Shown: positions 20,853-22,964 of the stretch, in pieces | Position numbering within the stretch: position 1 is the first letter of the stretch | How the letters are laid out: the number at the start of each line of letters is the position of its first letter | IMG/VR virus record: IMGVR_UViG_3300021962_000687 | Span: 1-22,964 of that record | From: a virus | Reading direction: 5' to 3' (one strand) | Length of the DNA: 22,964 nt | Notes under the pieces: generated by a model | Databases searched by the model: none | What the model was told of the DNA's origin: nothing | The model's input: only the letters and a program-made list of their open reading frames with translations | Translations under genes and position numbers: made by a program

Positions 20853-20929
20853 TGGAGCGGGAGACGAGTCTCGAACTCGCGACATTTACCTTGGCAAGGT
20901 AATGCTCTACCAAACTGAGCTACTCCCGC
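20853..20929 (-). tRNA. tRNA-Gly (GCC)
   Basis: A full cloverleaf on the minus strand. The acceptor is GCGGGAG/CTCCCGC (7 bp), the D-arm GCTC...GAGC with TTGGTA, and the anticodon stem TTACC/GGTAA with loop TTGCCAA (anticodon GCC). The T-arm is GCGAG/CTCGT with loop TTCGAGA. The discriminator is T and CCA is encoded. The variable loop is short. It is transcribed in the same direction as the Ro-like gene and the RNase H-like gene that flank it. Confidence 0.96.
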
Positions 20930-20964: not shown

Positions 20965-22371
20965 CTAGACCGCGTAGCGATCGATCATTACTGCTTTCAG
21001 CATAATTGCTTCTGGAGTAAATTGTTCTGTATCACCAGCAAGCACTGCCTTCATAATAGCTGGACTGAATCCAGATACTAGAGCAACGCCACGCTCGTCA
21101 AACTTCACAGGCACGTTGTCGTGTGCGTTCAAATTCCAGAACACGATCTTTGGAAGTTCGTATCCTGCTTCTTCAAACTTACGTCCGATCATTCTCATCG
21201 CTGAGTCGTCGAAACGAGCACAAGCGTCGAATTGCATATCAGACAAGATCAACAACATCTCTGGCATTTCGTTTTGAGGAACATTACCTTCCTTAGCAGT
21301 GCTTAGGATTTTATCCATAGCCTTAATCAAGTTAGTGTTCATCTCCCAATGCGATTTAACCATTTGTTGAGATTTCTCTACAACGTTACCTTTCAAGTGT
21401 AACAATTCTGGTTTACCTGAGAAAGTCAAGAACGTATCCTTGAATTTACCAGTGTTTTTATCTGCTAGGTATAAACCAAGAGATACAGCAACATCCATAC
21501 ATGAAACAGTTGAGTTCTTTCCTGCTGGGCAAGACATAGAACCTGACACGTCTACTAATGGTAAGATGTTAGCATCACCAACAAAATTCTCCAATGCTTC
21601 CCATTGTTTTACAACGAGATCGAGCTCAGTTTTATTAAAGCGGCCATGAGCAACGCCTTTCAAAACATCGTATGGGTATACGGCTCCAGCATTAACCTTA
21701 ACTTCAGGATTGTCTCCCTTAACCAAGGCTGCAACATACTTCGCATACTCTTGAGTATTACGATAGAATGCTTTCTTGTAACGAGCTGCCGCTACAGATG
21801 GTACGTGAGAGAAGTTAATCTCATCCCAGTTCTTTGCACACATATCTTGCTCAACGACCTTAGTCAATTCAACAAGAGACTTACGATAGAACTTTGGAGT
21901 CATGCCAAAGAAGTTACGGATCTCAACCGCTTGTGGTCCTTGACGAGGAGTCCACTTAGCAGCCAAACCATTCTTAGCTCGCAGAGCGTCACCAAGCATA
22001 GTATAAGCCTTAGCTTTTAGTGGATCAGTCTTGAAGATCAAAACGTCATCCCAACGACCAACTTCTGGAACTTTCGCTAGCAATTTTTCAGCCAACTCAG
22101 GACGGTTAACTTCTAAGTGACGCATGATCTGACGGAACAGTTCACGCTCACCAGCACCACCACGAGCATCACGAAGCCACAAGGCGATACGCAATGCTAC
22201 ATCTTCGTTTTCTACCAAAGCAGCAACGAAGTCAGCAGTAATATCTTTACCACGAGATGCACCAGACTTGAAGAACAAGTCCACACATGCAGACGCAGTG
22301 TTTTTACGTGCTAGCATGCCGTTAGTTGTGCGAGCAGATTGATTTACAACGGCGTTAACAAAAGTGTTCAT
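20965..22371 (-). CDS. Ro60-like RNA-binding protein (DUF2828/TROVE-like plus vWA)
   Basis: 468 residues. The N-terminal two-thirds is a helical-repeat domain with the DUF2828/TROVE-like signatures ACVDLFFKSGASRGKD (28-43), ALRIALWLRDARGGAGERE (59-77), VPEVGRWDD (101-109) and FSHVPSVAAARYKKAF (187-202). Residues 265-468 are a von Willebrand A domain. Its MIDAS motif is DVSGSMS (D274, S276, S278), with FLTFSG and LILSDMQFD supplying the later metal residues. Ro proteins are rings that bind the 3' ends of misfolded RNAs and hold Y RNAs. Phage members are often annotated 'Ro-like RNA binding protein'. AAGGA lies 6 bases before the ATG. The upstream 600 bases are non-coding and hold a Y-RNA-like transcript on the same strand. 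Downstream is a hairpin and a tRNA. Confidence 0.88.
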   Translation of the reverse strand: MNTFVNAVVNQSARTTNGMLARKNTASACVDLFFKSGASRGKDITADFVAALVENEDVALRIALWLRDARGGAGERELFRQIMRHLEVNRPELAEKLLAKVPEVGRWDDVLIFKTDPLKAKAYTMLGDALRAKNGLAAKWTPRQGPQAVEIRNFFGMTPKFYRKSLVELTKVVEQDMCAKNWDEINFSHVPSVAAARYKKAFYRNTQEYAKYVAALVKGDNPEVKVNAGAVYPYDVLKGVAHGRFNKTELDLVVKQWEALENFVGDANILPLVDVSGSMSCPAGKNSTVSCMDVAVSLGLYLADKNTGKFKDTFLTFSGKPELLHLKGNVVEKSQQMVKSHWEMNTNLIKAMDKILSTAKEGNVPQNEMPEMLLILSDMQFDACARFDDSAMRMIGRKFEEAGYELPKIVFWNLNAHDNVPVKFDERGVALVSGFSPAIMKAVLAGDTEQFTPEAIMLKAVMIDRYAV

Positions 22372-22387
22372 ACTTTTCCTTTCAACA

Positions 22388-22440
22388 GGTTCAACTTTTT
22401 CAAATTTGCAGTTTGATTTTGGAATTTGCTGAACTGAACC
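22388..22440 (-). promoter_or_regulatory. Stem-loop in the leader of the Ro-like gene
   Basis: GGTTCAGTT (22440-22432) can pair with AGTTGAACC (22396-22388): 9 bp with two G.U pairs and a 35-nt A-rich loop. It ends 6 bases before the AAGG of the ribosome site. It could control translation or mark the cut between the Y-like RNA and the mRNA. There is no direct evidence. Confidence 0.3.
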
Positions 22441-22449
22441 TAAATTTAA

Positions 22450-22586
22450 AACAACAGAATAGTTTTTCTACTTTTTGTTTTAAGTGAGATGCTCGAAACT
22501 CACTTCGATGGTGTAGGGCGAGCCCTAGCACTACCAGCCGCGGGTATTAATCCGCAAGAGGTTTGCTGTAACTATTCTATAACCAG
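22450..22586 (-). ncRNA. Y-RNA-like small RNA with tRNA-like module
   Basis: A transcript of about 135 nt predicted downstream of a strong sigma70-type promoter. Its ends pair: 22580-22570 with 22464-22454, 11 bp including one G.U, containing AGAATAGTT/AACTATTCT. Between them is a tRNA-like module. A perfect 7-bp stem AAGTGAG/CTCACTT (22505-22499 with 22488-22482) carries the T-loop UUCGAGC. A hairpin UAGGG-CUCG-CCCUA (22527-22514) occupies the anticodon-arm position. CGC/GUG around the loop GGCUGGUA (22542-22529) resembles a D-arm, with the GG needed to dock the T-loop. There is no acceptor stem or CCA, so it is not a tRNA. Bacterial Y RNAs (YrlA class) have this end-paired stem plus tRNA mimic and are encoded next to Ro genes, as here. 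The exact ends are estimated. Confidence 0.6.
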
Positions 22587-22591
22587 TGTCT

Positions 22592-22620
22592 ATTATATTA
22601 GACAATAAACAAAAAGACAA
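22592..22620 (-). promoter_or_regulatory. Sigma70-type promoter for the Y-like RNA
   Basis: -35 TTGTCT (22620-22615), 17-bp spacer, perfect -10 TATAAT (22597-22592). The start is predicted near 22586-22584. A GTCTA/TAGAC inverted repeat (22603-22588) overlaps the -10 and could be an operator. The -35 also serves as the U-rich tail of the RNA region upstream. Confidence 0.65.
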
Positions 22621-22720
22621 CAGACTGGACATCATCGAGGGAATCTCTTTCCTCACCCAGATTCGGGGCTGGTTTTCGGCCCGAAGGCCTGGCAGATTGT
22701 TGGTATGCTGGAACCAGTCT
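22607..22720 (-). ncRNA. Hairpin-rich RNA domain ending in a U-rich tract
   Basis: AGACTGG (22720-22714) and CCAGTCT (22628-22622) are a perfect 7-bp end-to-end pairing that encloses a 99-nt domain. Inside are GGCC-UUCG-GGCC (22689-22678) and GAATCT/AGATTC (22664-22659 with 22646-22641). The domain is followed by TTGTCTTTTTGTTT, a plausible terminator tail. A run of seven T lies just upstream (22729-22723). It is more GC-rich than its surroundings. It looks like a second structured RNA, perhaps another Ro client. No known family is recognised. Confidence 0.4.
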
Positions 22721-22733
22721 ATAAAAAAATAAC

Positions 22734-22930
22734 GGGATGATCGGGTTAGTGTTAACTTGGTTTCACGAAACCTCAGTGCTCCTTTCGGCATATCCCCACT
22801 GTAACGAATCGACATTCTTATCGACCAATATATCCAGTTCTCTGGCATAGATTTACTTTAAGTTTTCTCTCTAGAGGAGTATCTCGTCCTCGTTCTAGTT
22901 GATTAGAATATGCTGTAGTCATCCCTTTAA
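22734..22930 (-). other. Non-coding region with several hairpins, possible structured RNA
   Basis: No convincing gene is seen. Hairpins on the minus strand are CCAG-AGAA-CTGG (22845-22834), CAGTG/CACTG (22801-22797 with 22778-22774, enclosing a CC-GAAA-GG) and GGTTT-CGTG-AAACC (22772-22759). The region begins at a predicted promoter and runs into the 99-nt domain downstream, so both may belong to one RNA of about 320 nt. A 34-codon frame from 22922 lacks a usable ribosome site. Confidence 0.35.
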
Positions 22931-22935
22931 CGTAA

Positions 22936-22964
22936 ACTATACATCATTAATAGACTAAAGACAA
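22936..22964 (-). promoter_or_regulatory. Sigma70-type promoter at the window edge
   Basis: -35 TTGTCT (22964-22959), 17-bp spacer, -10 TATAGT (22941-22936; 5 of 6 to consensus). It has the same -35 and spacer as the promoter at 22620, suggesting a shared phage early or middle promoter type. The start is predicted near 22930. Confidence 0.5.

Follow-up and report, generated by a model that had tools for sequence, protein, structure and literature searches.

A probable phage Ro/Y-type ribonucleoprotein system with one RNA handle and exchangeable, often tRNA-like effectors

Introduction

Ro proteins bind the paired ends of Y RNAs, and the resulting Ro/Y particles, which are conserved, abundant and linked to autoimmunity, have a debated function and represent a long-standing puzzle. 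In bacteria, the small RNA YrlA is found beside the gene of a Ro-like protein (Rsr/Ro60), has paired 5′ and 3′ ends and carries an effector with the shape of a permuted tRNA, composed of a T-arm, a closed acceptor-like hairpin and a D-arm. The Ro60/Rsr/TROVE proteins, including the Ro60 of Thermus phage phiLo (PDB 9l5y), combine a helical repeat with a vWA domain.

Another RNA class relevant to the present analysis, also abundant, is found in Dictyostelium. It was established that Class I RNAs possess a covarying stem of 6 bp, a conserved G that follows an A, an 11-nt motif (T3, C6, C9, A10, A11) beside the 5′ strand, a variable middle and a CUGU 3′ end, and that they are bound by the RRM protein Rnp1A; they were considered exclusive to dictyostelids, with a mode of action not known to the authors (PMC7919456). 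In Listeria phages, a study of CKA15 detected its DUF2828 protein CKA15_055 in purified virions (20 peptides, 57% coverage; PMC12282133, Table 1). The abundant noncoding RNAs encoded near this Rsr-like protein were suggested as possible Y RNAs, those of CKA15_059-060 accounting for up to two thirds of the phage transcripts (PMC12282133).

The DNA analysed here, hereafter the window, is a virus record of 22,964 bases. On its minus strand, four tandem RNA elements (22925-22383) lie just upstream of a DUF2828 gene, with bodies that differ and ends that are alike, the common ends being referred to below as the handle. An earlier note on this DNA treated a single RNA, corresponding to the third element, and the array of four went unnoticed. 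In our view, the locus is likely to code for a phage ribonucleoprotein system of the Ro/Y type, in which one handle carries exchangeable effectors and the DUF2828 protein would bind the handle.

The Ro-like protein gene

The gene in question (20965-22371, minus strand) encodes a protein of 468 aa with a helical N-terminal part and a vWA domain, whose MIDAS motif D-x-S-x-S is intact (DVSGSM) and conserved. The protein matches Pfam DUF7788 (7e-48) and DUF2828 (4e-21), as well as PHROG 850, annotated as 'RNA-binding protein' (6e-141). The position of the RNA directly upstream of a helical-repeat plus vWA protein, on the same strand, was described correctly in the earlier note. The Pfam search returned no TROVE domain, only these two families and one insignificant match, and a PDB search with the sequence of the DUF2828 protein retrieved no relative. 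An AlphaFold2 model built from 33 relatives (pLDDT 75) was then compared with the PDB, and the top 11 matches were all Ro60/Trove/Rsr structures (E 3e-10 to 4e-5). The best of them were the Trove domain 9kop and the phiLo Ro60 9l5y, together with Xenopus Ro (2i91, 1yvr, 1yvp) and Deinococcus radiodurans Rsr (2nvo), these six having E-values of 3e-10 to 4e-6. The TM-scores against Ro structures were modest (about 0.4-0.5), and although the helical repeat plus vWA architecture is common to both, the model is only 11-18% identical to the Ro60/Rsr/TROVE proteins in the structural alignment. Since the structural matches are to Ro60 but a TROVE match is absent at the sequence level, the DUF2828 protein, as modelled, is Ro-like in fold and is not a sequence member of TROVE.

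Judged from its sequence, AAAGGA (22377-22382, minus strand) is the likely Shine–Dalgarno site of this gene and directly follows the fourth RNA element. Downstream of the gene, a tRNA-Gly(GCC) (20853-20929, minus strand) is the only tRNA that ARAGORN and Rfam recognized in the window, and the related loci sit amid phage tRNA genes.

Four tandem RNAs in the window

Element 1 (22730-22925, minus strand, 196 nt) combines the handle stem GGGAUGA/UCAUCCC, the motif CAGCAU and the tail GUUA with a large structured insert, of a module class that recurs upstream of many homologues of the DUF2828 gene. It is immediately preceded by a promoter-like site (22936-22964, minus strand; TTGTCT-17-TATAGT, 9/12). 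Element 2 (22618-22720, minus strand, 103 nt) has the handle AGACUGG/CCAGUCU with CAGCAU and GUUG, and its middle module is also present in loci L019 and L028. Element 3 (22452-22578, minus strand, 127 nt) has the handle AGAAUAGUU/AACUAUUCU with ACAGCAA and GUUG, and its insert is a UUUCGA module. Element 4 (22383-22441, minus strand, 59 nt) is a short handle without a structured insert that ends beside the ribosome-binding site, being a candidate autoregulatory operator.

What had been stated about the structure of element 3 was partly right, its likeness to a tRNA being overstated. The ends close in an 11-bp stem, as claimed, and the folding of the element (22578-22452) has a z-score of -2.80, with 1 of 200 shuffles equally good. 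The proposal that this RNA has its own promoter agrees with a sigma-70-like site (22592-22620, minus strand; TTGTCT-17-TATAAT, 10/12), whose -10 hexamer ends 13 nt before the handle and which has counterparts in many homologous RNAs. The supposed T-arm is a real 7-bp hairpin (22482-22505, minus strand; AAGUGAG UUUCGAGCAU CUCACUU), for which relatives present compensatory changes (GUGAG/CUCAC, AUGAG/CUCAU, CCUGAG/CUCAGG and GUGUG/CACAC), but its loop comprises 9-10 nt and is not the 7-nt T-loop that had been read into it. Likewise, the 'anticodon-like' hairpin, with a loop of 8 nt, and the GGUA D-loop-like element, which is merely four bases, had been overstated. The RNA indeed has no acceptor stem, and ARAGORN and Rfam call no tRNA there, leaving its description as a tRNA mimic unsupported. 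Element 3 itself is not a convincing tRNA mimic, whereas related array members are.

Some minor features of the array were also considered. A DNA similarity search of the array against phage records gave nothing above chance. A 105-aa ORF that runs across it (22531-22848) is probably spurious, as no PHROG family was found for it and it overlaps structured RNA. Within element 3 (22522-22489), the loops CUCG and UUUCGAG are complementary and could form a kissing contact, with which relatives (UUCG with CGAA) agree in part. This contact was not counted as evidence, because UUCG also forms a stable tetraloop.

The shared handle and its covariation

The handle consists of a covarying 7-bp closing stem, whose 5′ strand is flanked by a CAGCAA-type motif and whose 3′ strand is followed by GUUG or GUUA. 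In 80 homologous loci taken from viral contigs, inspection of the upstream regions revealed arrayed elements that conform to AGnnnnn-nU[U/A]CAGCAA-insert-n′n′n′n′n′CU-GUUG. In order to keep the test of the stem non-circular, 5′ and 3′ ends were chosen by the conserved motif alone, and the stems were complementary at 7/7 positions in 61 of the 74 pairs, against 6.1 expected with shuffled partners. The compensatory changes proposed as a check on the closing stem and the T-arm were therefore found, as massive covariation in the former and as the hairpin changes listed above in the latter, so that this check did not refute the earlier proposal. A scan based on complementarity identified 190 elements within 2.5 kb upstream of 77 DUF2828 genes, while the controls gave 1.6 after mononucleotide shuffling of the sequence, 4 when the opposite strand was scanned and 8 in downstream sequence amounting to 215 kb.

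A consensus was derived from 196 distinct elements, in which the CNGC core and the GU tail were imposed by the scan, and the outer A-U stem pair and the U before CAGCAA were not. The 3′ end reads CUGU in most elements, the C and U preceding GU, also free of the scan, occurring at 99% and 87%, respectively; the handle of Escherichia phage ECML-1 has CUGG where others have CUGU. A pseudoknot between CAGCA and UGUUG was considered informally and rejected: the variants of CAGCAA (CCGCAA) and of GUUG (GUAA, GUGA or GUAC (Listeria)) are not accompanied by matching changes in the other motif, which makes protein contacts likelier than pairing between them.

Linkage to the DUF2828 gene

The linkage was also approached from the opposite side, by a blind scan of 2.9 million viral contigs with the bare DNA pattern AGGATNNNTTCAGCAAN{20,50}ATCCTGTT, which gave at least 120 stretches of about 10 kb each. 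Among the matches listed, the two stem pairs outside the pattern were complementary in 148/148 copies, some of whose contigs may be near-duplicates. A DUF2828 gene was present inside 47 of the 120 listed stretches, and all 53 copies there were on the strand of the gene. When longer contigs whose stretch had lacked DUF2828 or gone unchecked were considered, 18 of 24 (one of the 24 coming from a second, Listeria-type pattern) encoded DUF2828 elsewhere, and the gene was encoded in all 14 tested handle-pattern contigs of at least 55 kb. Considering that DUF2828 relatives occur in 682 of 50,697 phage records in general, the handle pattern predicts the presence of this gene.

In complete or near-complete genomes, typical handles were confined to the strand and the surroundings of the DUF2828 gene, within about 10 kb, and the scattered remaining matches resembled chance. 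The handles precede the gene in Synechococcus phage BUCT-ZZ01, Vibrio phages BUCT194 and KVP40, Listeria phage List-36 and Enterococcus phage EFGrNG, follow it in Mycobacterium phage Winky, Staphylococcus phage S-CoN_Ph16 and Escherichia phage ECML-1, and occupy both sides in Cronobacter phage S13. Across the handle-bearing set, the identity of the DUF2828 protein to that of the window falls from about 80% to about 32%. The same arrangement was observed in contigs of bacterial metagenome bins carrying a DUF2828 gene; of the alignments used for genome scans, A2 was too diverse and A3 gave 13 loci, mostly from such bins. The scans detected no convincing handle in three isolates with DUF2828, namely Stenotrophomonas phage DLP6, Campylobacter phage NCTC12673 and Xanthomonas phage XbC2.

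Effector modules carried by the handle

Among roughly 200 distinct elements, about 79 have short loops and about 40 carry the UUUCGA module seen in element 3, which is marked by GUGAG-UUUCGA(R)UU-CUCAC and AAAACAAAAAGUAGAAA. The module was counted in 38 distinct elements, and its hairpin had at least 5 contiguous base pairs in 29 of 36 relatives, compared with 12.3 when partners were shuffled. Moreover, a promoter scoring at least 10/12 was found at the same place in 29 of 45 UUUCGA-class RNAs, and in 16 of 980 random positions.

Other elements are tRNA-like. In loci L055, L067 and L071, tRNA bodies are attached to the handle via the acceptor end. A second arrangement, in which the handle extends from the anticodon arm and the order is T-arm, 3′ acceptor strand, short loop, 5′ acceptor strand and D-arm, was recognized by a permuted-tRNA test that 29 elements passed. 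About 25 of them were judged convincing, those of L002, L026 and L043 and the merged L088 entry being doubtful as scored, and these approximately 25 elements occur in phages of six host genera and in many uncultured ones. In many of the permuted tRNAs, the acceptor loop is tight (3-6 nt), CCA is missing and the anticodon arm is incomplete; in some (S13, L047), CCA is encoded. In L005 and L018, where the elements start 526 nt and 1706 nt before the gene, respectively, the acceptor stem of the permuted tRNA was seen to be lengthened and closed by extra structured RNA of about 80-110 nt.

The converse arrangement was also found, as otherwise ordinary tRNA-like genes of 113-124 nt with an encoded CCA and the handle inserted in the anticodon region, in Cronobacter phage S13, Citrobacter phage Ci1 and Synechococcus phage BUCT-ZZ01, with the form S′(CU)-GAUA-(AG)S-AUUCAGCA. 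A scan of 653 kb for this form yielded seven matches on the forward strand and none on the reverse, of which the one in L077 is probably due to chance and those in L020 and L088 fall where one tandem element adjoins the next. These RNAs have the identical stem and motif, with the chain ends shifted to the acceptor. The combination of tRNA fold and handle is thus preserved irrespective of where the ends lie, an argument for the importance of the folded object itself. About seven such genes were noted in four phages (L086:5895-6138, L083:5891-6125, L082:5581-5827 and L038:816-936), some of them annotated as pseudo-tRNAs.

Two large recurrent modules of about 150-280 nt, GGAAAGACAG...CCGAAAGG and ...CCAGAAAAUAAAUUACG..., which look strongly structured, were observed in element 1 of the window (22925-22730) and in homologues with the stem GGGAUGA or UGGAUGA, and no Rfam family matched them in the loci searched. 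A phage-encoded tmRNA (L071:7007-7345) was noted about 4 kb from an array, close to a tRNA cluster, and scores with the permuted-tmRNA model as well as with the alphaproteobacterial one.

Comparison with YrlA and Class I RNAs

Two independent Rfam models recognize different parts of these RNAs, both below threshold: the Class I model the handle, and the YrlA model the permuted tRNA. The YrlA model (RF02553) reached at best 47.8 bits (L093; E 7e-11 per record) against a cut-off of 69 bits, and its best matches (E 1e-11 to 1e-7) fall on permuted-tRNA elements, whose effectors it scores at 37-48 bits. It aligns the effector only, the terminal, Ro-binding stem fitting poorly and in a shifted register, and it gave no match to element 3 of the window, where a permuted-tRNA effector is absent. 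Since tandem ordinary tRNAs weakly score as well and 11 of 14 control genomes respond, sub-threshold matches to this model were dropped as general evidence, except for the strong ones to elements whose acceptor loop is closed. The phage system thus resembles YrlA in having small RNAs with paired ends beside a Ro-like gene and, in the approximately 25 elements of related loci, a permuted-tRNA effector. In contrast to YrlA, the phage handle is without the known Ro-binding consensus of Y RNAs, several tandem RNAs bear effectors unrelated to one another, linear tRNAs and non-tRNA modules among them, and the partner is DUF2828, with a Ro60-like fold, instead of a TROVE protein.

The Dictyostelium Class I RNA model (RF01414) gave the first pointer to the elements of KVP40 and ECML-1. 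In 32 records, 25 of its 27 best matches were near a DUF2828 gene and on the same strand, most of these 25 falling on elements already listed. The best score on phage handles was 36.6 bits (E 2e-7 per record), below the cut-off of 41.5, and the E-values are somewhat optimistic, as 2-4 of 14 control genomes respond at weak values. Phage handles and Class I RNAs share a short covarying stem joining the ends, a variable middle, the CUGU end and the existence of many paralogues. Concerning the 11-nt motif, for which the Rfam consensus is CCUUACAGCAA, the CAGCAA part is very similar to the phage U[U/A]CAGCAA, whereas T3 is not conserved and the spacer is 4 nt in Class I RNAs and 3 nt in phages. The phage elements also differ by their sigma-70 promoters and by their larger and tRNA-like inserts. 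As a comparison of sequences, this likeness is compatible with homology as well as with convergence. It is conceivable, although we lean towards doubting it, that DUF2828 and the handle RNAs constitute a second, ancient Ro/Y branch across phages and eukaryotes, with Class I RNAs as its cellular members, bound there by a DUF2828/Ro-like protein, and a modular phage form in which one handle carries many effectors, including whole and permuted tRNAs.

Proposed system and alternative explanations

In the system proposed here, the DUF2828 protein would be co-produced with small RNAs encoded in tandem and would bind their handle, as Ro binds the ends of Y RNAs. The remainder of each RNA would serve as an exchangeable effector, projecting from the protein and setting what the particle meets, a tRNA body being joined by its acceptor end or, when permuted, by its anticodon arm. 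Such a tRNA-shaped effector might attract enzymes that handle tRNAs (nucleases, ligases, modification enzymes), acting as a decoy or bringing them to RNAs held by the protein. Additionally, effector-free short handles at the ribosome-binding site may allow the DUF2828 protein to repress its own translation. This autoregulation is suggested by short handles beside the start codon, given that an element ends no more than 25 nt from that of DUF2828 in 50 of 99 loci, beside the Shine–Dalgarno site, and that 33 of these 50 elements are short.

The same positions also favour an alternative in which the elements are mainly regulators in the mRNA leader, that is, tandem operators for self-repression of DUF2828 with the inserts as passengers. 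Nevertheless, many elements are located amid tRNA genes at a distance of kilobases from the gene, on one side or the other, and in mycobacteriophage Winky and Escherichia phage ECML-1 they come after it; the inserts recur and have strong structure, and most RNAs of the UUUCGA class have promoters of their own. This explanation is consequently considered improbable as the main one, although autoregulation and a Ro/Y particle role may go together. About as small a probability is given to the handle being an intron-like or processing element, removed by cleavage and phage RNA ligases to give functional tRNAs with the protein as a processing chaperone. It would account for the intact tRNA bodies with an encoded CCA and a handle in the anticodon region, for the permuted tRNAs that encode CCA (S13, L047) and for the RNA ligase genes near the locus in Listeria phage List-36. 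However, most elements (short loops, UUUCGA and large modules) contain no tRNA, many permuted tRNAs have the short acceptor loop, missing CCA and incomplete anticodon arms described above, and most isolate loci examined have no ligase annotated beside the gene.

By itself, the linkage leaves room for a protein other than DUF2828 as the binder of the handle. Another host or phage protein could bind it, the association with DUF2828 reflecting the gene order of phage tRNA clusters; the loci are such clusters, and Class I RNAs, whose handle is very similar, are bound by Rnp1A (PMC7919456), which points in this direction. On the other hand, the linkage persists from about 80% to about 32% protein identity, across unrelated phage families and amid unrelated neighbours, and the handles precede or follow the gene and share its strand. 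This makes another binder the least probable of the alternatives, and a very unlikely one. Linkage, covariation and the similarity of fold give strong support to the idea, first proposed for the single RNA, that a Ro-like DUF2828 protein is accompanied by its own Y-type RNA. The Ro/Y-type reading has good support from computed features, namely the Ro-like fold, the tRNA-like effectors, the DUF2828 linkage, the layout of the arrays and the handle with its covariation, and it applies to a large family, in which a new handle is combined with effectors that are modular and often tRNA-like.

These findings reveal a large and apparently unrecognized phage set of Ro/Y relatives, in which the shared end can be separated from the effectors by comparison and the function of each part can be tested in phages amenable to genetics, among them phages of E. 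coli K-12. That permuted and handle-bearing tRNAs occur naturally suggests a connection to the contest between phages and host defences that cut tRNAs. A previously unsuspected link to an orphan eukaryotic RNA class is possible, and if the likeness to Class I RNAs reflects homology, that class would gain a candidate partner and an evolutionary history.

RNAs of Listeria phages

The handles of the CKA15 locus lie closer to the gene (L287:3513-3777, corresponding to 25,288-25,552 of OR088597.1) than the putative Y RNAs proposed for this phage (CKA15_059-061). The possibility that these abundant RNAs are handle RNAs was rejected, as the coordinates do not coincide. Those of CKA15_059-060 are among the long, structured and handle-free noncoding RNAs, each with a strong promoter, that were also observed in Listeria phages (L089:3020-4010 and L287:2367-2870). 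Given the presence of CKA15_055 in virions, Ro/handle particles might be packaged and enter the host along with the phage DNA.
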